In this document: piece by piece, positions 19,087 to 37,500 of the stretch
Numbering within the stretch: position 1 is the stretch's first letter
Layout of the letters: the number at the start of each line of letters is the position of its first letter
Assembly (NCBI GenBank): GCA_003963435.1
Contig: RXJC01000457.1
Coordinates: forward strand, 1-48,382
Length of the DNA: 48,382 nucleotides
Source of the DNA: Bradyrhizobiaceae bacterium
GTDB lineage: Bacteria; Pseudomonadota; Alphaproteobacteria; Rhizobiales; Xanthobacteraceae
Direction of reading: 5' to 3'
Made by a program: the position numbers and the translations under genes
The notes under the pieces: generated by a model
The model's input: only the letters and a program-made list of their open reading frames with translations
Databases searched by the model: none
What the model was told of the DNA's origin: nothing

Positions 19087-21225
19087 TCACTCCGCGGCGG
19101 CGAGGTGCCGTTCCTCCTCATCATCGGTGTTGGTCTCCTCGTCATCGCCGTCGAGGAAGTCCGGCAACGCCTCGTCGCCCTCGCCAGAGTCCGCCTCGGT
19201 GCTTTCGGCATCGGCGCCGGAATTGCGCAGCGGTTCGGGCAGCCAGCCCGTCTCGGCGAGGAGACGTTCGGCTTCGGTCGCCATGTCGCCCTTCTTCAGA
19301 TGTGCGATGAGTTGGGCGGCGCGCTCGCCGGCGCCTTCACGCACCGCTTCGAGGATGCGGGGCTTGGTGACGCGGCCGAGATAGTTGGCGACGGTCGGCC
19401 GCCACCCGGCTTCGGCCATGTCGAGCCCGACCGCCAGCGACAGGCGATCGGCTTCGGCGATGCGCTGTTCGACACTATGCGCCGAGACACGGCCACCGTA
19501 GCGATCGGCCCGCTCATAAAGCGCATTGACGCCGAACGAAGCGCAATGGGCGAAGAGTTCGGCCTGTTCGGGGCCAGTCAGTGCGGCCAGCCCATCCCAG
19601 AGATCAGCGACTTTGGCCGGGAGCCGTTTGCGCCAGCTATCGTGCCGGGCCTCGATCGCCTTGGCATAGACGCTGTCACGAAGCCCTTCGGGCTGCGAAT
19701 GGAAGGTCGTGCCCCGCACGCTGACCTCCATCGCGAAGCCGTACTGGCTGCCGCCGTAGAACACGTCCTGGCAGAACTTGTGCAGGACGGCGACGAAGGC
19801 GACCGAGGGATCGGTGGCGAGCTTGTCGCGGAGCGCGAGGGTGCGATCGGCGGTCAGCTCCGTGATCAGTCGATCGGGGAGCGGCTTGATCGTGTCGTCC
19901 TCGTCCTCCTCCTCGGGCTCGGCAGGTTTGCCGCAGATGGTGATGACCGCGCGCTGGACCGAAGGCGACGCCGGATAGTCAGCGTCATCGTCGCCGCCAT
20001 CCTGCTCTTCACCCTCGCCATCGCCCGCCTGGTTGGCGATCTCGTCCTCGGGTCGGACATAGCCGCGGTCGATCGACAGCGTGCCGTCGGCGTCCAGGCT
20101 GACGAAGACCCCGGCGATCGCGATGTCGGCGGGTTCGTAGTGGACCGGCCGCTCGTCGAAGCTGGCGAGCGCGGTTTCGATTTCGCCAAGGCGCTGATCG
20201 ATCTCGTCCGGCAACTCGTCGGCGTTCTCATATTCGGCCTCCAGCTTGGCGCACTCGGCGTTGAGCGCCTCGATGGTCGCCTGTTCGTCAGCCGTCAGGT
20301 CGAGCGGCGTGCCCACGATCTCGCGCAGGCCGTGGGTGGCGCCATAGGGGAAGCTCATCGCCACCTCGATCCATTTCCAGCCTTCGCCGGCGATCGCTTC
20401 GGCGGAGGCTTTCAGCTTGTCGGCGACCAGGCGATCGAGCAGCGCAGGATCCTGCAGCCAGCCGCCGTCGTCATCCTGGAAGAGATCGCGCAGCACGCAG
20501 CCGCCGTTGGTTTCATAGGCATCGATGCCGACGAATACGGCCCGCTTGTCGGATGCGCGGACGGCGGTCTCGGTCAGCATGCGCCGGATCTGGTAGGGTT
20601 CCCTCTGCCAGCTATTGCGAACCGACTCCCAGACCTGCTCCTGACGCGCATGATCGTTGGTGACGGTGAAGGCCATGAGCTGTTCGAGCGTGATGCCGTC
20701 CTCGGCATAGATATCGAGCAATGACGGCGAGACGGCCGCGAGGCGAAGCCGCTGCTTCACGACCTGGACGGACGCGAAGAATGCAGCCGCAATCGCCTCC
20801 TCGGTCATGCCCTTCTCGCGCATCGCCTGGAACGCGCGGAACTGGTCGAGAGGATGCAGCGGGGCGCGTTCGATATTCTCGGCCAGCGACACCTCGTCGA
20901 CGAGGATGTCGGCATTGGCGTCCGACACCACGCACGGCACCTTGGAGGTCTTGGTGAGGCGCTTCTGCTTGACGAGGAGCTGCAGCGCGCGGAAGCGACG
21001 CCCGCCCGCCGGCACTTCGTACATGCCGGTTTCCTGGCCGTCGGCATCGAGCACCGGCCGGACGTGGAGGGACTGGATGAGACCGCGCCGGGTGATCGAC
21101 TCGGCCAGCTCGTCGATCGAGACGCCAGCCTTGACGCGGCGGACGTTCGACTGGCTCAGCACCAGCTTGTTGAAGGGGATGTCCTGCGCCGACGACAGGG
21201 TGATCTTCTGAATGGCAGTTGCCAT
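19087..21225 (-). CDS. parB: Large ParB/RepB/Spo0J-family protein
   Basis: 712 aa, more than twice the usual ParB length. The N-terminal ParB domain is clear: FNKLVLSQSNVRRVKAG, then EVPAGGRRFRALQLL and LAENIERAPLHPLDQFRAF, with an HTH-like region at about 150-200 (EEAIAAAFFASVQVVKQRL). The C-terminal 450 residues are a family-specific extension with acidic low-complexity stretches (about 400-445) and an acidic tail. It is not next to parA, so it may act in DNA processing or regulation instead of segregation. The start has GGAG 8 nt upstream and a repeated leader element. Confidence 0.9.
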   Translation of the reverse strand: MATAIQKITLSSAQDIPFNKLVLSQSNVRRVKAGVSIDELAESITRRGLIQSLHVRPVLDADGQETGMYEVPAGGRRFRALQLLVKQKRLTKTSKVPCVVSDANADILVDEVSLAENIERAPLHPLDQFRAFQAMREKGMTEEAIAAAFFASVQVVKQRLRLAAVSPSLLDIYAEDGITLEQLMAFTVTNDHARQEQVWESVRNSWQREPYQIRRMLTETAVRASDKRAVFVGIDAYETNGGCVLRDLFQDDDGGWLQDPALLDRLVADKLKASAEAIAGEGWKWIEVAMSFPYGATHGLREIVGTPLDLTADEQATIEALNAECAKLEAEYENADELPDEIDQRLGEIETALASFDERPVHYEPADIAIAGVFVSLDADGTLSIDRGYVRPEDEIANQAGDGEGEEQDGGDDDADYPASPSVQRAVITICGKPAEPEEEDEDDTIKPLPDRLITELTADRTLALRDKLATDPSVAFVAVLHKFCQDVFYGGSQYGFAMEVSVRGTTFHSQPEGLRDSVYAKAIEARHDSWRKRLPAKVADLWDGLAALTGPEQAELFAHCASFGVNALYERADRYGGRVSAHSVEQRIAEADRLSLAVGLDMAEAGWRPTVANYLGRVTKPRILEAVREGAGERAAQLIAHLKKGDMATEAERLLAETGWLPEPLRNSGADAESTEADSGEGDEALPDFLDGDDEETNTDDEEERHLAAAE

Positions 21226-23970: not shown

Positions 23971-24036
23971 TGCGGGGTCTCCCCGCAGAAGGGGTCGGCC
24001 GAGACCCTGGGCTCGGCCGCAGGGGAAGGCTTTCCC
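23971..24036. repeat. Three adjacent hairpins at the backbone/cargo boundary
   Basis: Stems TGCGGGG/CCCCGCA (23971-23987), GGCCGAG/CTCGGCC (23997-24018) and GGGGAA/TTCCCC (about 24022-24036) stand in a row in the divergent gap between DUF932 and the first antitoxin gene. None has a U tract. They could insulate the two transcription units or mark an old insertion boundary. Confidence 0.5.
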
Positions 24037-24092
24037 CTCCAGGCCCCCTCTCAATCGCTGGCCCTTCCAGTCGGTTTGGGGGAGATTGAAAA

Positions 24093-24122
24093 CTGTCAGA
24101 AAACCGCATATATTTCTGACAG
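24093..24122 (+). promoter_or_regulatory. Operator of the first AbiEi-like gene
   Basis: Perfect 10-bp inverted repeat CTGTCAGAAA (24093-24102) and TTTCTGACAG (24113-24122) with a 10-bp spacer that contains a -10-like CATATA. It ends 10 nt before the GTG start. AbiEi antitoxins are known to repress their own promoters through inverted repeats. Confidence 0.75.
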
Positions 24123-24132
24123 GAGAAGTGCC

Positions 24133-24762
24133 GTGCAACGACTGACCGAACAGATTCTGGCGCACACCGAGGGCTTGCCCGAGGGCGCTCCGATCGCGGC
24201 GAAGAGCCTGCTCCATCTCGGCAATCGCGCCGCGGTGGATCAAGCCTTGTCGCGACTGGCTGAACGTGGCCGGCTGATGCGTGCCGGGCGCGGCGTCTAT
24301 CTGCGCCCGGTTTCGAGTCGGTTCGGCGTCCGCGCGCCCTCCGTCGAGAAGGCCGTCGAAGCCCTCGCGCTCCAGCGCGGCGAAACCATCGTGTCGAACG
24401 GTGCCGCGGCCGCTAACGCGCTCGGCCTCACGACACAGGTGCCGGTCCGGTCGGTCTATCTGACATCGGGCCGTAGCCGGACGATGAATCTGGGCCAGCA
24501 GGTCGTCGAGCTGCGGCATGCGCCGCGCTGGCAGTTGGCGCTGGCCGATCGGCCCGCCGGACAGGCGGTGCGAGCGCTCGCCTGGCTGGGGCCGGAAAAG
24601 GCAGAAGCCGCCTTGATGACGTTGAAGCGCAAGTTGCCGTCTTCCACGTTCGGCGAACTCGTCGCGGTCGCGCCCCAGCTACCGAGCTGGCTCGCCAGGA
24701 CGGTCGGCAAAGTTGCATACGGCCGAAGGAGCCATTCTCAGGTGGGCGGCCTACCTATTTAG
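24133..24762 (+). CDS. AbiEi-like antitoxin / DUF6088 protein without adjacent toxin
   Basis: 209 aa from the GTG at 24133; AGGAG lies just upstream and the longer frame would run through the operator. N-terminal winged helix (about 1-70: KSLLHLGNRAAVDQALSRLAERGRLMRAGRGVYL), then the AbiEi C-terminal region (GETIVSNGAAAANALGLTTQ, SGRSRTMNLGQQVVELRHAP). AbiEi proteins are type IV antitoxins and autorepressors. No AbiEii toxin follows; the next gene is a second antitoxin. It may be a solitary regulator, a remnant of a lost pair, or a second partner for the one toxin downstream. Confidence 0.85.
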   Translation: MQRLTEQILAHTEGLPEGAPIAAKSLLHLGNRAAVDQALSRLAERGRLMRAGRGVYLRPVSSRFGVRAPSVEKAVEALALQRGETIVSNGAAAANALGLTTQVPVRSVYLTSGRSRTMNLGQQVVELRHAPRWQLALADRPAGQAVRALAWLGPEKAEAALMTLKRKLPSSTFGELVAVAPQLPSWLARTVGKVAYGRRSHSQVGGLPI

Positions 24763-24837
24763 ATTGTCCGAAATTTGTATATTTATTTCGGACAATCCAC
24801 TTGGTTCGCGTCCGAAAAAGGACTACAATTTTCGGAC
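24762..24837 (+). promoter_or_regulatory. Tandem operators of the second AbiEi gene
   Basis: Two inverted repeats in a row: GATTGTCCGAAAT (24762-24774)/ATTTCGGACAATC (24785-24797), perfect over 13 bp, and GTCCGAAAA (24810-24818)/TTTTCGGAC (24829-24837). Both have a 10-bp spacer, as the first antitoxin operator does. The second repeat ends exactly at the start codon. The half-site GTCCGAAA differs from the first gene's GTCAGAAA by one base. Confidence 0.75.
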
Positions 24838-25668
24838 ATGAACACCGACTCGCCCGATCTGAAGAAAGCCATGCTCGAGCGCATCCGTGCGGATGCGCCA
24901 CGCAAGGTCTGGACGCCCAGTGACTTCGTCGATCTCGCCTCGCGGGACGCGGTCGATAAGGCGTTGCAGCGGCTGACGAAGGTCGAAATCCTTAGGCGGA
25001 TTGATCGTGGGCTCTACGATCAGCCTGGCTTCAACAAACTCACCCAGAAACCCAATCCGCCTGATCCGCGCTCAGTCATCGACGCCGTCGGGCGACGTGA
25101 CCAAACCCGGATGCTTGTCGACGGCATGACCGCGGCGAACGATCTGGGCCTAACTGACGCCGTCCCCGCCAAAATCGTGGTGCACACCGACGCTCGGCGC
25201 CGCGCGATCAAGCTCGGCAACGTAACGATCACCTTCCGTCCAACCGCGGCCAGCAAGCTATTCTGGGCCGGACGACCAGCGATGCGCGTCGTCCAAGCGC
25301 TTCACTGGCTGCGCGATCTCCTGGTTCGTGAAGGAGAAAGTGATCAGGTTAGGCGCAAGCTCGCCAATCTTTTCGAAGATCCCACGGTGGGACCGCCCCT
25401 CAAAGCGGATCTCACTGCCGGTATGACAGCTCTTCCGACATGGATGTGGGTGTTTCTCAAGCCGCTCGTTGAAAGCGACGCCGGCGTTCGTCGTCGGCAC
25501 GTCGATGATGATCGTGATGATGCTGATCATGATCGTCATCAACAAAGAACGGCGGACGATGCCGATGATCAGCGTCATGCTGCCGTCGCCCGGCCCAAGC
25601 GAAAGCCGCTCTCCCCGCAGAAGGCACAAACTGCCAAGCGCGGTGCAGCCCGGGCGGTGAAGACATGA
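24838..25668 (+). CDS. abiEi: AbiEi family antitoxin with His/Asp-rich tail
   Basis: 276 aa from the ATG at 24838; upstream codons lie within the operator. Winged helix at about 10-65 (VWTPSDFVDLASRDAVDKALQRL, EILRRIDRGLYDQPGF), then the antitoxin domain (TRMLVDGMTAANDLGLTDAV, FRPTAASKLFWAGRPAMRVVQAL). Residues about 218-245 form an unusual acidic/His tail (VDDDRDDADHDRHQQR), followed by a basic end (PKRKPLSPQKAQ). Its stop overlaps the toxin start (ATGA). It should neutralise or counteract the nucleotidyltransferase and repress its promoter. The start codon touches the operator, so the mRNA may be nearly leaderless. Confidence 0.85.
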   Translation: MNTDSPDLKKAMLERIRADAPRKVWTPSDFVDLASRDAVDKALQRLTKVEILRRIDRGLYDQPGFNKLTQKPNPPDPRSVIDAVGRRDQTRMLVDGMTAANDLGLTDAVPAKIVVHTDARRRAIKLGNVTITFRPTAASKLFWAGRPAMRVVQALHWLRDLLVREGESDQVRRKLANLFEDPTVGPPLKADLTAGMTALPTWMWVFLKPLVESDAGVRRRHVDDDRDDADHDRHQQRTADDADDQRHAAVARPKRKPLSPQKAQTAKRGAARAVKT

Positions 25669-26744
25669 ATCCGGCTTTCGACGAGGTTCTCGCGGCCGGG
25701 TCGGACGCGATGTTGAGCGCCTTCGATACGACGGCGCTACGCCTCGGCACGGCGTCTCAGAATATCGAGAAGGACTTCTGGGTCTGCTGGACGCTGGATG
25801 CCTTGTTCAATGGCTTGAAAGAGGGCGGACCCCGCCTCCTCTTCAAAGGTGGAACCTCCCTGTCCAAAGGGTTTGGTTTGATCAATCGCTTCTCCGAAGA
25901 CATTGATGTCACGGTGTTTCGGGACGACATCGGCGAGCCGGCGACCATCGAGGAGCTCGAAGCGCTGAGTAGCAAAAAGCGCCGGGCGCGCCTCGATGCG
26001 ATCAAGGACGCCTGCCAAGCCTACATCAACGGCCCGCTGCGGGCTGAGTTGACGCAGATCCTGCAGGACCGGCTTCAGGCTGCCGGCCTCGATGCCGGCG
26101 CGGCCCGAGTGGAAGCCGATGACGCTGATCCCGACGGGCAGACGCTTCTGATCTGGTATCCCGCGGCGACGCCGCGATCGGATTATGTGCGGGCAGCGAT
26201 CAAGATCGAGTCGGGCGCGAAATCCGCGCTCGATCCGAACAGCGAAGTGCCGATCAAACCCTATGTCGATGATGATCTGCCGGCGCTCGACCTGACCGTG
26301 CCGGCCGTCCGCACGGTCGATCCGGAACGTACCTTCTGGGACAAGGTTGTCATCCTCCATGGGCTGCGGCGCTGGTTCGACAAGCGCGGCGAGCTGCGCG
26401 GGGGCGGCCAACGCGTTTCCCGTCACTATTATGACCTGCACCAGCTCGCCGCGGCCCGCGTCGGCGCCGCCGCCATCGCTGATCCGGCGCTCGGTGCGGA
26501 TTGCGTCGCGCACGCCCGGATGTTCTTCAATCGACCGGACTTCGATCTCGCGAGCGCTGCGCCTGGCTCGTTTGCACTCGCCCCGCATGACGCGATGATC
26601 GAGCAACTGCGCGTCGACTACAGGGCCATGCAGGGCATGATCTTTGGCGATCCACCGGATTTCGAGGCGGTGCTCGACAGCATCGGCTCGCTCGAGACGC
26701 GTCTCAACAAGAAGGGCGATACGGGAGGCGGGGCCGCGCGATGA
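25665..26744 (+). CDS. abiEii: AbiEii/AbiGii family nucleotidyltransferase toxin
   Basis: 359 aa. DUF1814-type nucleotidyltransferase: the LLFKGGTSLSKGFGLINRF motif at about 58-76 and the catalytic pair in SEDIDVTV (Asp79, Asp81), followed by the helical C-terminal half (RTFWDKVVILHGLRRW, SRHYYDLHQLAAARVG) typical of AbiEii. Known relatives add nucleotides to tRNA 3' ends and arrest growth, giving abortive phage infection. It overlaps the antitoxin by 4 nt and the sigma-like gene by 4 nt, so toxin production is coupled to genes beyond a simple TA pair. Confidence 0.92.
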   Translation: MNPAFDEVLAAGSDAMLSAFDTTALRLGTASQNIEKDFWVCWTLDALFNGLKEGGPRLLFKGGTSLSKGFGLINRFSEDIDVTVFRDDIGEPATIEELEALSSKKRRARLDAIKDACQAYINGPLRAELTQILQDRLQAAGLDAGAARVEADDADPDGQTLLIWYPAATPRSDYVRAAIKIESGAKSALDPNSEVPIKPYVDDDLPALDLTVPAVRTVDPERTFWDKVVILHGLRRWFDKRGELRGGGQRVSRHYYDLHQLAAARVGAAAIADPALGADCVAHARMFFNRPDFDLASAAPGSFALAPHDAMIEQLRVDYRAMQGMIFGDPPDFEAVLDSIGSLETRLNKKGDTGGGAAR

Positions 26745-27598
26745 ACCAGTTGGAGGGAGCTTTCGACACCGGGCAAAAGGCAGACGCGCGTGGCGCGGGC
26801 GAAGCGATCGTAACCCCGCTGCGCAAACGCCGCCTCAGCGGCGAACTCTACGAGCGCGACCCGAAGATAGAAGCCCTCATCGCCGAATTGGCAGTCCTGC
26901 CGCGTGATGGCTTGATCGCCAGGGCGGAAATCACCAAGCGCTCGGACCCGGGCTACGTCCCGAGCGAATGTCTCGTTTACTTCATTCGCGCGAGCCGTCG
27001 CGACAACAACGAGGTGTGGTTCGAGCGCCTCTATCGGATCTTGACCGAACGGGTGCTGCGCAGTTTGCCCAGGGCGGAAAGCTCCGATGGAAAGACGGAA
27101 TCGCTGACGCGCGGGGTCGTGCGCGACAAGGTGTTCGGCCGGTTCGTCGAGCTCTTTTCGGCGGACCGCGCCGCCTACGACGAAAAGGTCGACTACTTCG
27201 AGGTGCGCTTCGATGGCGCGCTAGCGAGCCTGCGGCGCGATGCGCAGGAAAAGGCCTGGCGCGACGAAAACCGTTCCCAGCCCCTCGAATATGACGAGGA
27301 GAGCGGAGAACTGTCACCGGAGGTCGAGGCGGCCGCAGGGACCCACGATCCCTTCGCCGTGTCGGATTTCGACGACCCGTCTTACCGGTCGCGCCTGGAT
27401 GCAGCGATTGAAGCTCTACCGACAGAACAAAGCAGGATCATTCACATGTTGAGACAGGGCTTCCCCATCGACTCCAAGGAGCCGGACGTCATGACCATCG
27501 CCAAGGCTTTGGGCCGCTCCGAAAAGACCGTCCGAACCTACCGCGACAAGGCCTTCGCCGCCCTGCGAGCTGCCATGGCCGACGGAGACGAGCGGTGA
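26741..27598 (+). CDS. Sigma-70-like factor encoded in the AbiE operon
   Basis: 285 aa. The C-terminal 65 residues form a convincing sigma region 4: LDAAIEALPTEQSRIIHMLRQG, then the HTH TIAKALGRSEKTVRTYRDKAFAALRAAM. The middle part (VWFERLYRILTERVLRSL, VFGRFVELFSADRAAYDEKVDYFEVRFD) is helical and could take the place of region 2, but no clear -10 recognition motif is seen. It starts inside the toxin stop (ATGA) and ends inside the next start (GTGA). A role as alternative sigma factor for the downstream genes is an inference. Confidence 0.75.
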   Translation: MNQLEGAFDTGQKADARGAGEAIVTPLRKRRLSGELYERDPKIEALIAELAVLPRDGLIARAEITKRSDPGYVPSECLVYFIRASRRDNNEVWFERLYRILTERVLRSLPRAESSDGKTESLTRGVVRDKVFGRFVELFSADRAAYDEKVDYFEVRFDGALASLRRDAQEKAWRDENRSQPLEYDEESGELSPEVEAAAGTHDPFAVSDFDDPSYRSRLDAAIEALPTEQSRIIHMLRQGFPIDSKEPDVMTIAKALGRSEKTVRTYRDKAFAALRAAMADGDER

Positions 27599-28173
27599 GC
27601 CCCGGCGGCGGACGTCCATCCCGCGAGGCCGTGCTCGACGCGTTCGCGGTCGAGAGCGAGCCTGGCCGGTCGACCTTGGAACGCTATCTGCGGCTATACC
27701 CGGAATATGCCGGGGAGCTCATCGACCTCTCGCGCGAACTCAGCCGCGAGGCTTATGAAGATGCCGCACCCCTCTCTGCTACCGATCGGGCGCTGATCGA
27801 CGCTGCCTGGTCGCAACACGCGAAGGTTATGCCGGCGGCAGCAGCCGACCCTTTCGCGGCGCTGACGGTCGATGACTGGCGCGCCGTCGCGCAGCGTCTG
27901 GACGTGCCCCGGCAGGTCGTGACCGCACTGCGCGAACGGCGGGTCTCTCTCGTCAGTATCCCGCGACGCTTCCTGGCGATATTGGCGGATGCGATGCGCA
28001 GCTCTGTCGCACAGTTGGAGTCGTCCTGGGGGCCAGCGCACCTGATTGTCGCGCGCAGCTATAAGGCCGACAGCAAACCGGTGGCCGGCGAGCAGGTCAC
28101 CTTCGAGCAAGTGCTGATCGATGCCGGCGTCCCGGCCGAGAAGCGCGCCCGGCTGTTGGCGGAGGCGGACTGA
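27595..28173 (+). CDS. Unknown protein, possible sigma partner
   Basis: 192 aa from a GTG at 27595 that overlaps the sigma gene by 4 nt. Acidic, helical, without cysteines or membrane segments. The middle contains ALTVDDWRAVAQRLDVPRQVVTALRERRVS, which looks like an HTH or partner-binding helix pair; the C-terminal EQVTFEQVLIDAGVPAEKRARLLAEAD is typical of short degron-like or docking ends. No family recognised. Its position between a sigma-like factor and an ImmA/IrrE protein suggests an anti-sigma factor or regulatory substrate that the metallopeptidase may cut; this is speculation. Confidence 0.7.
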   Translation: MSPGGGRPSREAVLDAFAVESEPGRSTLERYLRLYPEYAGELIDLSRELSREAYEDAAPLSATDRALIDAAWSQHAKVMPAAAADPFAALTVDDWRAVAQRLDVPRQVVTALRERRVSLVSIPRRFLAILADAMRSSVAQLESSWGPAHLIVARSYKADSKPVAGEQVTFEQVLIDAGVPAEKRARLLAEAD

Positions 28174-28174
28174 C

Positions 28175-31100
28175 ATGGACAGTGTGGAGCTCGCCAGGCA
28201 AGTCGCCGCCGAGCTTCACGCTCGCCTCGTTGCATCCGGCGCCGATCCCTGGTCGCCCTATGACTTTGCTGTCGCCGAGGCCAAGCGGCGGGGGATTGAT
28301 GTCGAACGGACTGCCGCGGGCGCAGCCGTCCTCAATGGCGGCCGCGCGACTTTCGTCGCCGCCGACGATCTGATTCTTCACGAGAATATGGGCTCTCCGT
28401 TCGAGCAAGCTTTCCTCGTGGCGCATGAGATCGGCCATGTCGAGCTGGGCGACGATCCTGGTGGCGAAGCGGCGCCGATGATTGATCCGGCACGCCCGGC
28501 CGAGCCCTCACCAGTCGGAATGGATCGGGTTGTCGATTATGGACGCCGGCAACGCCGCGAAGTCCAGATGGACCTGTTCGCGCGCGAACTGCTGCTTCCG
28601 CGCACCGTCGCGCGGGCGCTCCATGTCGACCAAGGGCTCGCCGCGTCCGCCATCGCCGCGAAGCTCGGCGCGCCGTTCGAGGTCGTCGCGCAGCAGTTGT
28701 TCGATGCTTTGCTGCTGCCGCCCGTGCCTCCCGCCGCGACTGCGGCGCATGTCGAACGGCCGCTCAATCCGCTGCAAGCGGCCGCTGCGGCGCATCGCGG
28801 CGAAGCCTATCTGCTTGAGGCGGGGCCTGGCACCGGCAAGACGCAGACGCTGATCGCGCGCGTCGAGGGCCTTCTAGGCGAGGGCGTCGATCCACGGCGC
28901 ATACTGCTGTTGACCTTTTCGAACAAGGCAGCGGGCGAGATGGCCGAGCGGATCGCGCGCAAGCGGCCCGAGGCTGCGGCCGCGATGTGGATCGGCACGT
29001 TCCATGCCTTCGGCCTCGATATCATCCGTCGTTTCCATGCGGAGCTCGGCCTGCCGAAGGACCCGCGGATGATGGACCGGACCGAAGCGGTCGAACTCCT
29101 CGAGGGGGAGTTCCCGCGGCTTAGGCTCGCGTACTACCGCAATCTTTACGATCCGACCCAGATCATTGCCGACATGTTGGCCGCCGTATCGCGGGCGAAG
29201 GATGAGGTGGTCGACGCCGAAACCTACGCCGCGCTCGCCGACGCCATGCAGGCGAAAGCCCAGGACTCGGATGCGCGCGAGGCGGCGGAACGCGCCGGCG
29301 AGGTTGCCCGCGTCTACGCGGCCTACGAACAGCTCAAGCGCAACGCGCATTGCATCGACTTCGGCGATCTTGTCGCCTTGCCGGTGCAACTGCTCGAAAA
29401 GGAGGCGGCCATCTGCGCGGCGCTGCAGGCGCAATATGATCATGTCCTGGTGGATGAGTATCAGGACGTGAACCGCAGCAGCGTGCGGCTGCTGAGCGCA
29501 CTGCGGCCCGACGGCCGCAATCTCTGGATGGTCGGCGACGCCAAGCAGTCGATCTACCGGTTTCGCGGTGCCTCATCCTTCAACATAACCCGGTTCGGCA
29601 AGGAGGACTTCGCCGGTGGCAATCGCGGTCGATTGAAGCGTAATTATCGTTCGGTGCCGGAGATTGTCGCCAGCTTCTCCAGTTTCGCGATCACGATGCG
29701 CGCCGGCGATGCGGATAGTGGCCTCGACGCGGACCGCGACGCCAATGGACATAGGCCCGAGTTGCGCACGGTCCAGCGCGCCGAGCAGCAGCAGGTCGCC
29801 CTGGCCGACGCTATCGAGGAGCTGCGGCGTGACGGCTACGCCTATCGTGACCAGGCGGTCCTGTGCACCGGCAACGAAAAGCTGTCGACGATCGGGCAGG
29901 ACCTGGAACGGCTCGGCGTGCCGGTCCTCTTCCTGGGAAGTCTGTTCGAGCGGGGTGAGGTCAAGGATCTCCTGGCTCTCCTCTCGATCCTGGTCGATCG
30001 GCGCGCCATGGGCCTGGTGCGCATTGCCTGCTGGCGAGACTTCGCCACCTCCTTTGCCGATGTGGTCGCGGTCTTCGACCATCTGCGGGCGGCCGAGCAC
30101 GCGCCGGCGGGCTGGCTGCGGCATGGCGAGGCGATCCCCGGTTTGAGCGACAGGGGGCGGCAGACCGTTGCCAAGCTCGCGACTGCGCTCGATGGTTTCG
30201 ATCAGACGGCCTCGCCCTGGACCGTGCTCGCGACGCTGTTGCTCGATCGCACACGCATCGCCGCGCGCCTGGGCGCGTCGGAGGATCTCGCCGACCGCAC
30301 ACGGGGCATCGCGATCTGGCAATTCCTCAACTTTGTGCGGGTACAACCGGCCGGACGCGGGCTGCCCATCACGCGCCTGCTCGATCGTGTGCGCAGGCTC
30401 GTGCGGCTCGGCGACGACCGCGACCTGCGCCAATTGCCGGCGGCCGCCCAGCATCTCGACGCCGTGCGGCTGATGACCATCCATGGCGCCAAGGGCCTAG
30501 AGTTCGGTGGCGTCCATATTCCTGGGCTTAACAGCGACACGATCCCACGCACGCCGCCGGCGCCGCCCTGTCCGGCGCCCGACGGGATGATCGCGGGGGC
30601 GGAGGGCAGTGCGCTGGAGGCGTTCCGCGCAGGTCAGGCCGAGGAGCAGGAGTGCCTATTTTACGTGGCGCAGTCGCGCGCCCGCGATCGCCTGATCCTT
30701 TATGCGCCGACCGAGAAGAGTAACGGCCACAACCGACCGCTTTCGCCATTCCTCGACCGTCTCGGGGCGACCTTAACACGCCGTTCGCTCGTGCCGGCAC
30801 GGCCGCTTCCCGTGGCCGCGGAAGCTCGGGATATCGATTTGGTGGTCGACGGACGGCTGCGGTTAGGCGCCCCGCAGATCGCTCTTTATGAATCCTGCCC
30901 GCGTCGCTTCTTCTACACGCATGTCCTGCAGGTCGGCGGCCGGCGAACCGCGACCGCCTTCATGCATCTGCATGAGGCGGTTCGCGTGGTGGTCGAGGCG
31001 GTGATCGCGTCGGATGGACCCGTGTCCGAGCAGGCGCTGCAAGATCGCATCGATGCGGCGCTCGCCGGCGAGGGGCTCGGCGAGCACGGCTATCGCGCGG

Positions 31101-31576
31101 AATTCCGCGATCTGGCGCTGGCAATGCTGCGCTTCTTCCTGGCGAACCGCGCCGAAGCAGTCCCCGAAGCGCCGGTCGCGCTCAGCCTCAGTTTCGGCGG
31201 CGAGGAGATCATCGTTCGGCCGGACGAGGTGCTGGTGCGGCCGGACGGCATCCGCGCCGTGCGCCGCATTCGCACGGGTCACATGCGGTCGGCCGAGGGC
31301 AAGGATGTCGGCGCGGCGGCGCTGATGCTGGCGGTCAGGCAGTCCTTTCCCGGCGCGGTCGCAGAGCTCGTCCATCTTTCCGACGGCGAGGCACATGCGC
31401 TTGCCTTGTCCGATCGGGAGCTGAAGGGGCGCAAGGACAAGCTCGCAAAGTTTCTCGGCGACATCCGCGCCGGACGGTTTCCGGCCGAGGTTTCGTCGCG
31501 CACCTGCCCGAACTGCCCGGCCTTCTTCATCTGCGGGCAGACCCCCGACGGCCCCTTGCAAAAAAAGTTCGTCTGA
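28175..31576 (+). CDS. ImmA/IrrE metallopeptidase-UvrD helicase-Fe/S nuclease-like fusion
   Basis: 1133 aa from the ATG at 28175 (GGAGG upstream). Residues 1-180: ImmA/IrrE-type zinc peptidase with HEIGH at 84-88 and a third-ligand candidate Glu138 in FARELLLP. Residues 200-850: UvrD/PcrA SF1 helicase with GPGTGKT at 217-223, DEYQD at 427-431 and MTIHGAKGLEF late. C-terminus: AddB/Cas4-like domain with four cysteines (C908, C1111, C1114, C1120) fit for a 4Fe-4S cluster. Its expected acidic and Lys catalytic residues are not seen (VRPDEVLVRPDGIRAVRRIRTG reads R in place of D/E and K). Likely a DNA-damage or phage-sensing switch. Confidence 0.9.
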   Translation: MDSVELARQVAAELHARLVASGADPWSPYDFAVAEAKRRGIDVERTAAGAAVLNGGRATFVAADDLILHENMGSPFEQAFLVAHEIGHVELGDDPGGEAAPMIDPARPAEPSPVGMDRVVDYGRRQRREVQMDLFARELLLPRTVARALHVDQGLAASAIAAKLGAPFEVVAQQLFDALLLPPVPPAATAAHVERPLNPLQAAAAAHRGEAYLLEAGPGTGKTQTLIARVEGLLGEGVDPRRILLLTFSNKAAGEMAERIARKRPEAAAAMWIGTFHAFGLDIIRRFHAELGLPKDPRMMDRTEAVELLEGEFPRLRLAYYRNLYDPTQIIADMLAAVSRAKDEVVDAETYAALADAMQAKAQDSDAREAAERAGEVARVYAAYEQLKRNAHCIDFGDLVALPVQLLEKEAAICAALQAQYDHVLVDEYQDVNRSSVRLLSALRPDGRNLWMVGDAKQSIYRFRGASSFNITRFGKEDFAGGNRGRLKRNYRSVPEIVASFSSFAITMRAGDADSGLDADRDANGHRPELRTVQRAEQQQVALADAIEELRRDGYAYRDQAVLCTGNEKLSTIGQDLERLGVPVLFLGSLFERGEVKDLLALLSILVDRRAMGLVRIACWRDFATSFADVVAVFDHLRAAEHAPAGWLRHGEAIPGLSDRGRQTVAKLATALDGFDQTASPWTVLATLLLDRTRIAARLGASEDLADRTRGIAIWQFLNFVRVQPAGRGLPITRLLDRVRRLVRLGDDRDLRQLPAAAQHLDAVRLMTIHGAKGLEFGGVHIPGLNSDTIPRTPPAPPCPAPDGMIAGAEGSALEAFRAGQAEEQECLFYVAQSRARDRLILYAPTEKSNGHNRPLSPFLDRLGATLTRRSLVPARPLPVAAEARDIDLVVDGRLRLGAPQIALYESCPRRFFYTHVLQVGGRRTATAFMHLHEAVRVVVEAVIASDGPVSEQALQDRIDAALAGEGLGEHGYRAEFRDLALAMLRFFLANRAEAVPEAPVALSLSFGGEEIIVRPDEVLVRPDGIRAVRRIRTGHMRSAEGKDVGAAALMLAVRQSFPGAVAELVHLSDGEAHALALSDRELKGRKDKLAKFLGDIRAGRFPAEVSSRTCPNCPAFFICGQTPDGPLQKKFV

Positions 31577-31602
31577 CCTTACCGGTCGGCCTCCCTCGCT
31601 CC

Positions 31603-31655
31603 GATTGGACCCTTAGAGCCGCGGCGCTGCCTCGGCCGAACCTAAGGACCCAATC
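31603..31655 (+). promoter_or_regulatory. Structured leader hiding the ribosome-binding site of the poly-Ubl gene
   Basis: Arms GATTGGACCCTTAG (31603-31616) and CTAAGGACCCAATC (31642-31655) pair as 6 bp, two mismatches, 6 bp, around a GC-rich loop that can fold again. The second arm contains AAGGA (31644-31648), the best ribosome-binding site for the ATG at 31658, so the fold would block translation. The 81-bp gap is the only real break between the AbiE-helicase genes and the Ubl module. Confidence 0.6.
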
Positions 31656-31657
31656 TT

Positions 31658-32404
31658 ATGAACACCGAAGAACTTCTTGATTACGACGATCTCGGCAACG
31701 CCCTGCGCGAAGGCCGGGCGTTGCGTCCGGCGCGGGGGTATCGCTTTCTCCTCGCGCAGGGCGATCTCAACTTCCAGTCCCGTGTGGTGAGCGATCCCGT
31801 GCCGCTCGGCCGCCAGTTGCTGGAAGCCGCGGCACTCGACCCGCGGGACGGTTACAGCCTCATCGCGATCCTGCCCTCGGGCGATTTCGAGGATGTGAGG
31901 CTCAACGAGCCGTTCGACCTGCGTGAGCGCGGCGCCGAGCGGTTCATCGCCTTCCAGACCGACCGCGACTTCAAGCTGACCCTCAACGACCACGAGCTGC
32001 TCTGGGGCAAGCCGGTCATCAGCGGCACGGTGCTCTACGGCCTCGCCAAGCCCGGCGAGGGGGAGGCCGTCTTCCTCGAGGTTCCCGGCGGTGAAGATCG
32101 CCTGATCGAGCATGGCGAGCTGATCGATCTGGTCCAGCCCGGCATCGAGCGGTTCATCACCGCGCGGCTGACGTTCGAGATCATCGTCAATTCGCGGCCG
32201 CGCACGGTGAACGCCCGCACGGTGACGTTCGAACAGATCGTCCAGCTCGCCTTCCCGGGCCAGCACGAACCCAACGTCGTCTTCTCGATGACCTATCGGC
32301 ACGCGGCGTCGACGCCGCCCGCCGGTGAGCTCGGGGTTGGCGGCTCCGTCGACGTCAAGAAGAAGGGCACGGTGTTCAATGTCACGCGCACTGTTCAGTC
32401 GTAA
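31658..32404 (+). CDS. Poly-ubiquitin-like (multiubiquitin-domain) protein
   Basis: 248 aa with three ubiquitin-like beta-grasp repeats at about 28-100, 104-170 and 172-246. Each begins with a strand such as YRFLLAQGDLNFQ, FKLTLNDHELLWG or FEIIVNSRPRTVN; the first two end in ERFIAFQ and ERFITAR. No cysteine is present. It ends FNVTRTVQS, without the usual Gly-Gly, so it needs processing or a different conjugation chemistry. In bacteria such proteins are encoded with E1/E2-like enzymes and form ubiquitin-like tagging systems, some proven antiviral. The E1-like gene overlaps its 3' end by 26 nt. Confidence 0.85.
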   Translation: MNTEELLDYDDLGNALREGRALRPARGYRFLLAQGDLNFQSRVVSDPVPLGRQLLEAAALDPRDGYSLIAILPSGDFEDVRLNEPFDLRERGAERFIAFQTDRDFKLTLNDHELLWGKPVISGTVLYGLAKPGEGEAVFLEVPGGEDRLIEHGELIDLVQPGIERFITARLTFEIIVNSRPRTVNARTVTFEQIVQLAFPGQHEPNVVFSMTYRHAASTPPAGELGVGGSVDVKKKGTVFNVTRTVQS

Positions 32405-33551
32405 TCCGGACCTCAAGCGGCTGCGGGACGAAGGCTACTTCGTCCAGCAGCAGGGCGGGTATCTCGTTATGCGCGAGGTGCCGTATGTCGATGCGCGCCG
32501 GGAGGTGCGCATCGGCACCCTCATCTCCAGCCTCACGCTGGCCGGAGATCAGACGCGCCCGCCCGACACCCATGTCATCCACTGGGACGGCGATTTCCCG
32601 TGCCACGCCGACGGCAGGCCCATCCAGGGCATCTCGCATGCGGCCGGCGCCTTCGATCTCGGCCACGGCCTGAAGGCGACGCACAGCTTCTCCAGCAAGC
32701 CAGACGGCGGCTACTCGGACTACCACCACAAGATGACGAGCTACGCGAATATCCTCGCGGGCCCGGCCGCAGTGCTGAAGTCCGGCGCGACGCCTCGCAC
32801 CTTCCGCGAACCGGAAGAGGAGGAGGACAGCGTCTTCAACTATGTCGAGACCGCCTCCGACCGTGTCGGGATCGGCGTCCTGACCGAGCGACTCGTCAAC
32901 GAGCGGGTCGCCATCATCGGCGTCGGGGGGACCGGCGGCTACATCCTGGATTTCGTCGCCAAGACGCCTGTCCGGGAAATCCGGCTGTTCGACAGCGACG
33001 AGTTCCTGACCCATAACGCGTTTCGCGCGCCGGGCGCTCCGAGCCTGGAGGAATTGCGGGAAGCGCCCAAGAAGGTCGAATACCTGAAGCGCATCTACAG
33101 CCGGATGCACCGGAACATCGTGGCGCACGATGTCGCGCTCGGCGTCGACAACATTCACCTTCTCGACGGCGTCACCTTCGCGTTCCTGTCCCTCGATGCG
33201 GGTGACGCTAAGCGGCTGATCGTAGAGAAGCTCGAGGCGATCGGCGCCGCGTTCGTCGATGTTGGCATGGGGCTCGAGCTCGACGAGGGGTCGCTGGGCG
33301 GCATCCTGCGCGTCACCGCCAGTACGCCGGAGAAGCGCGATCACGCGCGGCAGCGCATTTCCTTCGTCGGCGGCGGCGCCAAGGACATCTACGCCTCCAA
33401 CATCCAGGTCGCGGATCTCAACGCCCTGAATGCTGTCCTCGCGGTCGTCAAGTGGAAGAAGATTCGCGGCTTCTACCGCGACCTCGAGCGCGAGCATCAC
33501 TGCACCTACACCACCGACGGCAACATGCTGATCAACGGGGATCTCGCGTGA
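32379..33551 (+). CDS. ThiF/E1-like adenylyltransferase with N-terminal DUF6791-type domain
   Basis: 390 aa from the ATG at 32379 (MSRALFSRNPDLKRLRDEGY). The C-terminal half is a ThiF/E1 adenylation domain: IIGVGGTGGYI (179-189) for ATP binding and LFDSDEF (203-209). The first 150 residues form an extra domain found in this family (HVIHWDGDFPCHADGRPIQG). The protein has only two cysteines: C75 in the N-terminal domain and C375 in EREHHCTYTTDGN. There is thus no obvious canonical E1 thioester Cys; C75 may act as an E2-like acceptor. It should activate the poly-Ubl protein. Confidence 0.85.
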   Translation: MSRALFSRNPDLKRLRDEGYFVQQQGGYLVMREVPYVDARREVRIGTLISSLTLAGDQTRPPDTHVIHWDGDFPCHADGRPIQGISHAAGAFDLGHGLKATHSFSSKPDGGYSDYHHKMTSYANILAGPAAVLKSGATPRTFREPEEEEDSVFNYVETASDRVGIGVLTERLVNERVAIIGVGGTGGYILDFVAKTPVREIRLFDSDEFLTHNAFRAPGAPSLEELREAPKKVEYLKRIYSRMHRNIVAHDVALGVDNIHLLDGVTFAFLSLDAGDAKRLIVEKLEAIGAAFVDVGMGLELDEGSLGGILRVTASTPEKRDHARQRISFVGGGAKDIYASNIQVADLNALNAVLAVVKWKKIRGFYRDLEREHHCTYTTDGNMLINGDLA

Positions 33552-33988
33552 TACGGCACAAGCGACTCGAACATCGTTTCGTCGAACACATCCCTGAGCG
33601 CCTTGAGGCAGGCATTCTCTATGTTTCGATGGAATATGCCACATCAGCCCACAGCTGCTGCTGCGGTTGCGGCGAGGAGGTCGTCGCCCCCTTCACGCCG
33701 ACGGACTGGAAGATGACGTTCGATGGCGAGACCGTCTCCCTTCGGCCGTCGATCGGCAATTGGACGCTGAAATGCCGGTCACACTATGTGATCGACCGCA
33801 GCAAGGTGATCGAGGCCGGCCCCTGGAGTGACGAGCAGGTCGAAGCCGAGCGTCGTCGTGACCGCGCTGCCAAAGCGCGCTTCTACGGGCAGACGCCAGC
33901 GATCGAACTTGCCGTTCAGCCCGCTCCCGTCAAGGCGGCTCCCGGCTTCTGGCGCCGCGCCTGGCGTTGGCTATCTGGCAGATCGTGA
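33548..33988 (+). CDS. DUF6527 zinc-binding protein
   Basis: 146 aa from a GTG at 33548 that overlaps the E1 stop by 4 nt. Metal-binding signature: H35, C37-C38-C39-G-C41 (SCCCGCGEEV) and C76-x2-H79 (KCRSHY), a compact zinc site. The C-terminal end FWRRAWRWLSGRS is amphipathic and could bind membrane or a partner. DUF6527 proteins occur beside multiubiquitin/ThiF genes, where they could act as substrate adaptor or E3-like factor; not proven. A hairpin follows the gene at 33995-34019. Confidence 0.82.
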   Translation: MIRHKRLEHRFVEHIPERLEAGILYVSMEYATSAHSCCCGCGEEVVAPFTPTDWKMTFDGETVSLRPSIGNWTLKCRSHYVIDRSKVIEAGPWSDEQVEAERRRDRAAKARFYGQTPAIELAVQPAPVKAAPGFWRRAWRWLSGRS

Positions 33989-33994
33989 CGATAG

Positions 33995-34019
33995 GCCCGA
34001 CGGCAGGTTGCCGTCGGGC
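33995..34019 (+). terminator. Terminator-like hairpin after the Ubl module
   Basis: Perfect 11-bp stem GCCCGACGGCA (33995-34005)/TGCCGTCGGGC (34009-34019) with a 3-nt loop, 6 nt downstream of the DUF6527 stop. No U tract follows, so termination strength is uncertain. Confidence 0.6.
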
Positions 34020-34265
34020 TATCCCGCTTCGGAACGCAGCGCAGCCCTAAGAGACAAATCAAGAACATCTATCAGGAGCTTACACGGTCTTCGCCGAAAT
34101 CCTTGTGCAAGGAATGACCGACACACCATATATTGATGTTAGGCATGGGGCGATCTCCTAGCACGTGCGCGTCTCCACTCATGGTGGTGGGGACGTGGGC
34201 GAGCTTCTTGCGACCTCCTCCGGTGCCTGGCGAGGACAGATAGGCATCGAGAAGGAGCGTGGAGA

Positions 34266-34502
34266 ATGGATGCTACCGAATTCAAGCCCGGCGATCTTGT
34301 GCGGGTGAAGTCAGGCGGGCCGATCATGACGGTCGAGCAGGTCGGGAAGACGGCCATGCTGGAGGAGGATGCCGTCTGGTGTGTCTGGTTCGAGAAGGTG
34401 GGCAACAAGCAGGTCGCGCGGAAAGACACGTTCGCGCCGGTCGTGCTGGAGAAGGCTGAGAAGCCACGAGCCGCGTTCTCCGTCGGCGTCGTTCGGGCGT
34501 AG
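34266..34502 (+). CDS. DUF2158 family small protein
   Basis: 78 aa; the ATG at 34266 has GGAG 5 nt upstream, while the overlapping frame starting at 34259 is off-frame. SH3-like DUF2158/YodC fold: FKPGDLVRVKSGGPIMTVEQVG, then VWCVWFEKVGNKQVARKDTFAP. These small proteins are widespread and of unknown function. It lies 277 bp after the Ubl module and 11 bp before the caspase-helicase gene, so it probably forms a two-gene unit with the latter. Confidence 0.82.
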   Translation: MDATEFKPGDLVRVKSGGPIMTVEQVGKTAMLEEDAVWCVWFEKVGNKQVARKDTFAPVVLEKAEKPRAAFSVGVVRA

Positions 34503-34513
34503 CGTGGTGCCTC

Positions 34514-37500
34514 ATGCCGTTTCGCGGCCTGTTCATCGGCATCGACCGTTATAGCTCGACCGGCATTGATGAGCTGACCTGCGCGCGTCGCGACGCGACG
34601 GCGCTGGAGGCACTGTTCTTCGACACGCTGGGCGGCAGCACAGTCTTGCTGGCAGATGCGGAGGCCACGCGGCAGCGGATTGAGGACGCATTTGCCGACC
34701 TGGCCGGCTGCGGCCCCGAGGATACGGTGGTGATCGCGTTCTCCGGCCATGGGTCGGAGACACATGAGCTCGTCACCCACGACGCGAATCCAGATGATCT
34801 CGCCGGCTCCGCGATCCCGCTCGAGCTGTTGCAGGAATGGTTCTCGCGGATACCGGCAAAGCGCCTGATCCTGTTCCTCGACTGTTGTTTTTCCGGCGGC
34901 ATTGGGGCGAAGGTTCTGCACGTCGATGCGAAGCCGCGCAGCCTTTTGTCCGCCGAAGCGCGCCTGGCTCAGCTTGGCGGCGCTGGTCGGATCATCTTCA
35001 CCGCCTCCGCGGCGACCGAGCCCGCCTATGAGCACCGCCGGTTCGGGCACGGCTTTCTGACCCACTTTCTGCTTGAGGCGCTATGTGGCGCCGAGGAAGT
35101 CGTGAGCGGCGGCAAGCTCTCGCTCTACCGCCTCCTCGAGCATGTCACGAGCCGCGTCCGGGCGGCCGCGCTGCAGGGCGGCAAAGAGCAGAACCCGACC
35201 ATGCGCGGGAGCATCGACGGCGATGTCGCGTGGCCCGTGTTCGTGCCGGGCGCTAAGTATCGGGCGGCCTTCCCGGCGCGTCTGCCTGCCAAGGTGACGT
35301 CCGATCTTGCCAGCCTCTCGTCGGCCGGTTTCCCCGACGCGCTTGTCACCGCCTGGGCTGGAGCGATCCCGTCCTTGAATGCGCTTCAGATCTCCGCCAT
35401 CACCGACTTCGGCGTGCTGGACGGCGAGAACCTGGTGGTGTCGGCCCCGACATCCTCGGGCAAGACGATGGTGGGCGAGCTCGCGGCGCTCCGGAACGTG
35501 CTGGATCGCAAACGGGCTTTGTTTCTGCTGCCGCTTAAGGCCCTTGTGGCAGACAAGCGGCGGCACTTCGAGAGCGTCTATGGCGGTTTCGGGGTCCGCA
35601 CGGTGGAAGCGACGGGCGAGACGGACGACATCGCGCCTCTGCTGCGGGGCCAATACGATGTCGGTCTCCTGACCTATGAGAAGTTCGCCGCGATCGCGCT
35701 GACATTCCCTCATGTGCTGGCGCAGGTCGGCGCGATCGTGATCGACGAAGCGCAGATGATCGCCGACCGTGGCCGCGGCGCGAATCTGGAGTTCATTTTG
35801 ACGCTCATCCGGATGCGCCGGCGTGAGGGGATCGAGCCCCAACTGATCGCGCTTTCGGCTGTGATCGGGGACACGAACGGCCTTGAGCAATGGCTCGGCG
35901 CGCGGCTCTTGCGGCGCACGGAGCGGCCCGTTCCGCTTGAGGAGGGCTTGTTGCTCGGCACCGGGCATTTCCGCTTTCTTGACCCGGAGAATGGCAATGA
36001 GCAGGTTGAGGGGCCGCTCGTTCGGCGTCTTGTCGGCGGCAAAGGATCCAGCCAGGATTGGATCATCCCGCTGGTGCGCAAGCTTGTGGCCGAAGGCCAG
36101 CAGGTGATCGTGTTTCGCGAAACCAAGGGCGAAGCCCGCGGCTGCGCCAACTATCTCGCAGAGTCGCTCGGATTGCCTCCGGCTGCCGAGGCGCTGACGC
36201 AGATGCCCGGCGGCGATCCCTCGCAGGCCAGCGCCGACTTGCGGAGCGCGCTGGGGCGCGGCGTCGCTTTCCACAACTCGGATCTCGACCGCGAAGAGCG
36301 GCGCGTCATCGAGGAAGAATTTCGCCGTAGCGGCTCGGGCCTGCGCGTCATCGCAGCCACGACGACGCTGGCGATGGGCGTGAACACGCCCGCGTCATCG
36401 GTCATCATCGCCGGCTTGAATCATCCCGGCGACGAGCCCTATTCGGTAGCCGAATACAAGAACCTAGTCGGTCGCGCGGGAAGGCTTGGCTTCGCCGAGA
36501 AGGGAGCTTCGTATCTGCTGGCGCTCGATCCGCGCGCCGAGCATGATCTGTGGTCGCGATACGTGACCGCGGAGCCGGAAGACTTGGTGTCCCGCTTCCT
36601 CGACGGTACAACCGACCCACGCTCCCTGATTATCCGCGTCCTAGTCGCGGCACAACGAGCGGCCGGCGAAGGCGTGCCGAGCGAGGAGATTGTCGAATTT
36701 CTGGAATCGAGCTTCGGCGCGTTCCAAGCCCGGCGCGCCCATAGCGCGTGGCAGTGGAGCCGGCCGGATCTGCTTTCGGCCCTAGCGGATTTGGAACGCC
36801 ACGGCCTGGTGCAGAAGAACGCTACAGGCGCGTATGAATTGACCAAGCTGGGCCGTCTCGCTGGCGAAAGCGCGGCAGAGGTCGGGTCCATCGTCGCGCT
36901 CGTAGATTGCCTCGGCTCGCTTCAGCCCCAAGAAATCAGCGATCCCGTCCTGATTGCCGCAGCTCAAACGACGGTCGAGGTCGATCAACTCCTTTTTCCG
37001 ATCAACCGAAAAAGCACGCAGAAAGAGCCTCAGCTATGGCCCAACGAGCTGCAGAGGCAGAATGTGCCGTGGCACGTCCTGAACGCGCTTCAGCGCGGGA
37101 CAACAGAAGATCATCAGGCGACCCTGCGTGCGAAGAAGGCGGTCGCTTGTCTTTTGTTCGTGTCCGGTCGTGCCATGAGCGAGATCGAGCGCGTGCTGAC
37201 GCAGTTCGGTGGTGCGTTTGGCGGCGCCGCCGGCCCCATACGCGCGGTCGCAGCGCGGACTTGCGATCTGATGCCGGTCGCGGCTCGCGTCGCCGAGATC
37301 CTGCACCCCACGCTCGATCTCGGTGACCGTGTGAGACGTCTGGCGATCCGGTTGACATATGGCGTGCCCAGCGCCGCCGTCGACCTCGCCCAATTCGCTG
37401 GAGCCGATTTGCTGCGGGGCGACTATTGCCGCTTGGCCGCCGCGCAGCTCTGTGAGCCCGAACAGATCGACGCCGCAACTGATGACCAAATTCTGGCATG

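Follow-up and report, generated by a model that had tools for sequence, protein, structure and literature searches.

INTRODUCTION

Passages of two papers describe the protease of the PprI/DdrO and CapP/CapH pairs as being activated by single-stranded DNA (PMC10904395, PMC13373217), and the second of these papers, in the part concerned, places CapW or CapH+CapP beside 219 of 544 Bub operons. The section of Iyer et al. 2006 that covers polyubiquitin-like (polyUbl) operons includes a type 6e, in which the E1 has an unknown N-terminal domain in some bacteria (PMC1779556). Here, we describe a six-gene operon in a stretch of 48,382 nucleotides from a Bradyrhizobiaceae bacterium (contig RXJC01000457.1 of assembly GCA_003963435.1; the whole stretch is referred to as the window). 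In this operon, genes for a sigma-like factor, a 192-amino-acid protein, and a peptidase-helicase precede a ubiquitin-like module, and a promoter-like motif occurs twice. On balance, we lean toward reading the operon as a switch, triggered by DNA, that turns on ubiquitin-like tagging of proteins.

RESULTS

A conserved six-gene operon

The core features of the operon, all on the forward strand of the window, are as follows.

26741..27598, +, core gene 1: sigma-like factor of 285 amino acids, with predicted sigma region 2-like and region 4 parts
27382..27409, +, promoter-like motif P1: TTACCGG-N16-CGATT, within the sigma gene and 185 nucleotides ahead of the 192-amino-acid protein gene
27595..28173, +, core gene 2: 192-amino-acid protein, with a predicted XRE-like helix-turn-helix at residues 85–147
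28175..31576, +, core gene 3: M78 (ImmA/IrrE) peptidase–UvrD/superfamily 1 (SF1) helicase–PD-(D/E)XK-like protein of 1133 amino acids
31579..31606, +, promoter-like motif P2: TTACCGG-N16-CGATT, in the 81-nucleotide gap ahead of the multiubiquitin gene
31607..31657, +, leader from P2 to the multiubiquitin start: predicted fold, with a Shine-Dalgarno-like AAGGA at 31644–31648
31658..32404, +, core gene 4: multiubiquitin protein, with three Multi_ubiq matches (Pfam, 1.3e-60)
32379..33551, +, core gene 5: E1-like protein of 390 amino acids, DUF6791 + ThiF (Pfam; domain scans began at residue 2)
33548..33988, +, core gene 6: DUF6527 protein (Pfam)

An earlier note on this DNA had proposed a five-gene operon made of a toxin-antitoxin pair, the sigma-like gene, the 192-amino-acid protein gene, and an ImmA/IrrE-UvrD gene. 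The coordinates bear out the tight packing on which it relied: AbiEi-like and AbiEii genes, AbiEii and sigma-like genes, and sigma-like and 192-amino-acid protein genes each overlap by 4 nucleotides, and the stop codon ending at 28173 is followed after 1 nucleotide by the start of the peptidase-helicase gene at 28175. The named identities also held, with Pfam matches for M78 (4.5e-16, the HEIGH motif lying at residues 84–88) and UvrD (4.5e-64) and, in the toxin-antitoxin pair, for AbiEi DUF6088 (1e-26) and AbiEii (1.3e-43). The last three of the five genes belong to one conserved unit and the toxin-antitoxin pair falls outside it, as set out below. Nor does the unit end at 31576, where the note had closed the operon; the genes for multiubiquitin, E1, and DUF6527 extend it to 33988. 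The note had overlooked this ubiquitin-like module, the conserved promoter-like motif ahead of it, and the PD-(D/E)XK-like C-terminal domain of the helicase protein.

A collection with one genome per species (84,980 species) was scanned for relatives of the peptidase-helicase. In total, 447 stretches encode one, and the best 80 of the 447, extracted with 10 kb on either side, were kept as loci for counts. Presence of a core gene was scored by tblastn at E ≤ 1e-4; as the loci are related, counts across them are not independent. The core order is sigma-like, 192-amino-acid protein, M78-UvrD-PD-(D/E)XK-like, multiubiquitin, E1 (DUF6791-ThiF), and DUF6527, and all six genes were present in 68 of the 73 loci whose contigs reach far enough to either side. 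The arrangement from the sigma gene to DUF6527 therefore exceeds chance. Across all 80 loci, the sigma-like gene was found in 75, the 192-amino-acid protein gene in 77, multiubiquitin in 75 (on the same strand in 74 of these), E1 in 73, and DUF6527 in 70. Among the five incomplete loci, L051 lacks the first two core genes, L083, L085, and L086 have different downstream genes, and L069 is a decayed locus in which the helicase gene matches only up to residue 910. A further locus, L084, is frame-disrupted.

Spacing was conserved along with order. Genes 1 and 2 overlap by 4 nucleotides in 65/75 loci, genes 2 and 3 are 0 to 3 nucleotides apart in 72/76, genes 3 and 4 are separated by 80 to 87 nucleotides in 66/74, genes 4 and 5 overlap by 26 nucleotides in 73/73, and genes 5 and 6 by 4 nucleotides in 66/70.

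The distribution of the operon is sporadic. Record titles place the loci in alpha-, beta-, and gammaproteobacteria, Acidobacteria, Verrucomicrobia, Myxococcus, and planctomycetes, together with one 6.3-kb contig of an archaeal metagenome-assembled genome (MAG) that is possibly misbinned. Within the window's own order, a profile of the 192-amino-acid protein matched 13 of 397 genomes, a count that includes its own genome and at least one false match (G139, whose locus L121 has none of the core genes); it matched none of the 14 other genomes listed for the same genus. At the phylum level, 7 of 398 genomes were matched, counting the window's own and one weak match at 5e-4.

A promoter-like motif at two sites

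Alignment of the gap between genes 3 and 4 revealed TTACCGG and CGATT at a fixed distance directly 3′ of the helicase stop codon (P2), and a scan with this gap motif located a second copy inside the sigma gene (P1). The two halves start 23 bp apart. Promoters of the sigma-70 type have a −35/−10 pair with a 17-bp spacer, which is also 23 bp from start to start. Among non-redundant loci, P2 was exact in 51/62 and within one mismatch in 59/62, and P1 was exact in 40/58 and within two mismatches in all 58. The 80 loci (1.64 Mb, both strands) contain 123 exact copies, 56 at P1 and 67 at P2, with none elsewhere. Exact copies were found in 3 of 752 control windows intended to fall outside the core; as the loci have no exact copy other than P1 and P2, these three are presumably P2 copies from loci where E1 went unmatched. 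In the genome of the window (89.5% complete, 7.31 Mb) there are three exact copies, two in this operon and the third on contig C2. Two wider roles for the motif were considered and rejected: a genome-wide regulon, as the pattern at one mismatch or fewer gave 7 matches against 10 for a reversed control, and a general presence of the motif upstream of the sigma gene, where a copy within two mismatches was seen in only 4/57.

P1 leaves a mark on the codons of the sigma gene. A codon test covered 103 conserved positions, and codons 215–232 hold seven of its eight strongest outliers: Y215, R216, A222, and I223 in the motif (z of 7.2–13.3 against a mean of 2.8) and L226, Q230, and R232 just 3′ of it. 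In the motif, I223 is encoded by ATT in 53/54 sequences (13.1 expected), R216 by CGG in 49/53 (12.9 expected), and A222 by GCG in 54/54 (19.8 expected). As a separate observation, the unusual codons 3′ of P1 (27415–27450) include CAA at Q230 (45/52) and AGG at R232 (44/51, with 4.0 expected). A Shine-Dalgarno-like AGGA at 27434 is followed there by an in-frame ATG at 27446, inside the sigma gene, and AGG with an in-frame ATG occurs downstream of P1 in 39/58 loci.

The two copies also tend to change together. In the 57 loci with both copies within two mismatches, base 3 is the same at P1 and P2 in 55 (A in 48, T in 7) and differs in 2; permutation gave a mean agreement of 43.2, and none of 5000 permutations was as high as 55. 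Such joint change within a locus is the pattern that one DNA-reading protein per locus would leave.

We then considered loci outside motif discovery. Eighteen were fetched, and L119 and L128, which repeat L049 and L063, were left out, leaving 16. P1 was within two mismatches in 12/16, and P2 in 12/15 (the record of L101 ends before its P2 region), against 11 of 1800 background windows. Five of these loci (L097, L099, L120, L129, and L131) have exact copies at both sites, and three share a variant between their sites, namely TTTCCGG in L118, TTACCGA in L096, and CTACCG in L117. In L096, an insertion sequence element lies between the helicase gene and the gap copy, which still stands 81 nucleotides ahead of the multiubiquitin gene. 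L114 and L115, whose helicases are ~44% identical, carry the second copy ~90 nucleotides ahead of the sigma gene and show, at the two sites, the locus's own form of the motif; 1/500 and 23/500 gap shuffles, respectively, equaled the shared match. For L116 (helicase 36% identical), a search that did not use the consensus gave a different shared pair, TACCGAA-N16-TCGCT, which 3/2000 gap shuffles equaled, the compared stretch having been narrowed after the pair was seen. L100 has three motif copies. No P2 consensus match within two mismatches was found in L116, L130, or L132; by eye, the gap copy of L130 seems to have a spacer one base shorter, and L132 offers weak candidates only.

Proteins of the proposed switch

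The label of a sigma-like factor, given in the earlier note, began from a weak match and was later strengthened. Pfam matches region 4 of the window protein at 1.7e-4, below the curated cut-off, and 36 of 49 family members match at E ≤ 0.01; the protein has the region 4 helix-turn-helix of the sigma-70 family (ECF-like). In all eight divergent members examined, sigma models were the sole matches, with near full-length matches at 2.8e-8 and 1.3e-7; TIGR02937 spans positions 3–161 of 165 in L116 and 4–163 in L120, both below the curated cut-off. In a structural search, all 50 rows shown look like sigma factors by title or chain, including three 'RPSx' titles that we take to be sigma factors, and rows spanning two domains had large root-mean-square deviations. 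Region 4 resembles −35-binding domains, and the first ~30 residues are poorly conserved.

For the 192-amino-acid protein, a structure model predicts an XRE-like fold at residues 85–147 and places conserved K157 and P162 in a partly low-confidence linker, which is a candidate cleavage region, the cut being predicted close to residues 151–162. Its profile had no relative among solved structures (best E, 0.85), and the protein had none among phage records; a scan of viral contigs, sensitive to close relatives only, likewise returned none. Plasmid records gave 72 matches, of which 45 were from Acinetobacter, and six inspected records include a plasmid of a cyanobacterium and a conjugative one of Klebsiella, the latter having a Tn7-like gene close by.

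In the peptidase-helicase, the M78 HExxH and E129 are kept in 58/58 aligned relatives, giving the metal site of M78 (ImmA/IrrE) peptidases, and the Walker A motif is conserved. The M78 domain profile found no relative by sequence among solved structures (best E, 0.57). The C-terminal PD-(D/E)XK-like domain (2.2e-12) has four cysteines kept in 58/58 relatives. An active nuclease was rejected, as 0/58 relatives have an acid at the D/E-x-K position, with the motif placed by eye on the alignment; we predict a DNA-handling part rather than a nuclease.

A protease switch acting on the 192-amino-acid protein and freeing the sigma factor appears to fit these features best. The trigger would be DNA damage or invasion, and DNA bound by the helicase part would activate the fused peptidase. 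The peptidase would then cut the 192-amino-acid protein, which is proposed to restrain the sigma factor, and so release this private factor. Released, it would start transcription at P1, ahead of the 192-amino-acid protein and peptidase-helicase genes, and at P2, ahead of the multiubiquitin, E1, and DUF6527 genes, turning tagging on. Transcripts would begin some 5–10 nucleotides beyond CGATT. Both motif copies are proposed to be read by the sigma-like protein, and the tagging may serve as a stress or phage response or as defense.

The same region could be read in another way, with the motif as the operator of a 192-amino-acid helix-turn-helix repressor that the peptidase removes as CapP removes CapH, and with the sigma-like protein as a co-factor. 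The XRE-like predicted fold is consistent with this, as is the placing of a helix-turn-helix protein beside an M78 protease, which matches the CapH+CapP arrangement as given in the passages cited above. However, the motif consists of two unlike half-sites at promoter-type spacing, its ACCGGT palindrome is not kept because bases 3 and 8 vary, and the operon itself encodes a sigma-like protein with a −35-type region 4. We consider an operator unlikely.

The ubiquitin-like module and its alternatives

The multiubiquitin profile matched solved structures 9cd2 (2e-28) and BilA 8u38 (4.1e-21). In L046, L047, L075, and L078, the multiubiquitin protein reads as a single ubiquitin-like domain after a charged N-terminus, with the operon unchanged. 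Downstream, C75 of the E1-like protein, within DUF6791, is kept in 54/55 sequences, and residue 375 is split between Cys (28) and Ser (27); in DUF6527, H35, C37, C39, C41, C76, and H79 are kept in 54/54 aligned. By sequence, the DUF6791 and DUF6527 profiles had no relative among solved structures (best E of 0.45 for DUF6791; none for DUF6527). No JAB or E2 domain was matched by Pfam at E up to 1 in the proteins of 31658–33988.

The leader between P2 and the multiubiquitin gene was more stable than its shuffles in 56/57 loci (z < −1; mean z, −3.1), and the longest stems comprised 47 distinct pairs. Perfect stems of at least 6 occurred in 29/57 loci, compared with 24% of shuffles. RNAalifold on a MAFFT alignment of the leaders found no consensus pairs, which counts against a leader fold, and Rfam had no match in 24000–38000. 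If present, the fold may have a role in translation control of the multiubiquitin gene.

Other modules, too, follow the same upstream genes, in most cases together with a form of the motif. That of L086 comprises a Multi_ubiq-E2 fusion (Pfam) and a gene read as JAB-E1, with relatives in L116 and L120 (tblastn). L083 has a small Multi_ubiq protein with a weak JAB match just under the Pfam cut-off, a ThiF gene, and then a gene read as SbcD-like. The L099 module, with relatives in L114 and L115 (tblastn), has a DUF7665 gene, genes read as ubiquitin-like, JAB-like, and E1-like, and a metallophosphatase gene. In L085, metallophosphatase and SMC-like genes were present, and no ubiquitin-like gene was seen.

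These modules bear on a second alternative, that the M78 peptidase is not a regulator and is instead the processing or deconjugating protease of multiubiquitin, in place of the JAB peptidase present in other operons of this kind. Core genes 3–6 of the window have no JAB match in Pfam, and the multiubiquitin tail is strongly conserved, its last residue being Ser in 53/54 aligned sequences of at least 220 amino acids. That tail, however, sits in the 26-nucleotide overlap with the E1 gene in 73/73 loci, and the overlap also constrains it. The same peptidase-helicase precedes modules that apparently have a JAB-type gene of their own, in L083 (Pfam, just under cut-off), in L086 and L099 (by eye), and in L114, L115, L116, and L120 (tblastn), and a relative of the 192-amino-acid protein is present in 77/80 loci. 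This role for the peptidase is improbable, a little more so than the operator.

Probable mobile setting and neighboring genes

Two neighboring genes lie directly upstream of the core.

24838..25668, +, AbiEi-like antitoxin gene (DUF6088): optional neighbor outside the core (PDLC02233, 9e-102)
25665..26744, +, AbiEii nucleotidyltransferase toxin gene: optional neighbor (PF08843, 1.3e-43; PDLC02289, 1e-102)

The window thus has both predicted AbiE genes, and the earlier note had taken this toxin-antitoxin pair to be part of the system and the output of the switch. In the window, ATGA overlaps do link AbiEi to AbiEii and AbiEii to the sigma gene, and AbiEii directly precedes the sigma gene in 16 of the 71 loci with at least 1.2 kb upstream (8/54 without near-duplicates). 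In the other 55, AbiEii was not found beside the sigma gene, and the pair was rejected as an integral part of the operon. The note had held that finding its genes mostly apart in other genomes would count against it; this is true of the AbiE genes, given those counts, and untrue from the sigma gene onward. The pair lies upstream, not downstream, of the motif copies, and in L015, L018, and L021 it is a caspase-helicase relative that ends just upstream of the sigma gene. As an output of the switch, the AbiE pair is very improbable.

Matches to AbiEi and AbiEii anywhere in the locus were found in 20/80 loci each. In the decayed copy of L069 (12600–15200), a gene pair reading like AbiE lies downstream of the helicase gene. 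A second AbiEi-like gene (24076–24762; DUF6088; PADLOC, 1.1e-66) precedes the AbiEi of the pair in the window, and between them is an inverted repeat, TTGTCCGAAAT / ATTTCGGACAA at 24764–24795, with a further half at 24828–24838 and an operator-like look.

On the other side of the core, 34514–37618 encodes a caspase domain fused to a Hel308-like helicase. Matches to it occurred in 16/80 loci. Eleven are near full length, those of L015, L018, and L021 among them, and 8 of the 11 are near-identical to that of the window. With a relaxase (985–2808), a ParB-like gene (19087–21225), and an integrase (37925–39286), the window is likely an integrative mobile element. Single alignments of 16–21 kb at 99.2–99.99% nucleotide identity (window 18175–39517) were found in 8/80 loci, ending at about 39517, and the carriers are Bradyrhizobium, Xanthobacter, Sphingomonas, and MAGs. 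These alignments indicate recent transfer of the element, almost unchanged, between genera. Among 63 neighbor proteins scanned of 147 selected, a set with no control and hence no claim of enrichment for defense genes, five matched phage integrase, and others matched helicases, methylases, and a transposase.

DISCUSSION

If the proposed switch is correct, bacteria would have a further means of turning on immune or stress operons, one that works through a sigma factor, and the ubiquitin-like operons predicted in 2006 would gain a concrete control system. The operon can be recognized from sequence alone by its promoter-like motif, which also opens the idea to direct testing. Among the open-access papers listed by our searches, with subscription papers and preprints outside their scope, we recognized no description of this gene combination, and the open-access papers searched yielded no mention of DUF6791 or DUF6527. 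The main text of the 2026 paper on Bub operons, as available, does not contain the word helicase (PMC13373217).

Among known systems, AbiE resembles the locus in that an AbiEi/AbiEii pair adjoins the operon, though as an optional neighbor. The Bil (BilABCD) and Bub operons are alike in their multiubiquitin protein, which is related to solved BilA, but core genes 4–6 here have no Pfam E2 or JAB domain, so the E2 and JAB deconjugase genes of Bil were not found.

A close counterpart of the module itself is the type 6e polyUbl operon, as presented in the relevant part of Iyer et al. (PMC1779556), with a multi-domain ubiquitin-like protein, an E1 with an N-terminal non-JAB domain, and a small metal-binding protein. 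Type 6e combines polyUbl with an E1 that has a JAB or other N-terminal domain, and the window has both in its three Multi_ubiq matches and DUF6791-ThiF; DUF6791 is probably domain X of Iyer et al. 2006. C37-x3-C41 and C76-x2-H79 of DUF6527 are similar, though not identical, to the type 6e C-x3-C-x35-38-H-x2-C. The words sigma, helicase, and UvrD are absent from the text of that paper as available, which gives no account of the three upstream genes or the two motif copies.

For the upstream half, close counterparts are CapH+CapP and PprI(IrrE)/DdrO, which likewise place an HExxH M78-type peptidase beside the gene for a helix-turn-helix-like protein, ahead of another operon. Unlike the stand-alone M78 protease of CapH+CapP controllers, the peptidase here is fused to a UvrD-type SF1 helicase and a four-cysteine PD-(D/E)XK-like domain, and, in a further difference from both systems, it is accompanied by a predicted sigma factor with its own promoter-like motif.

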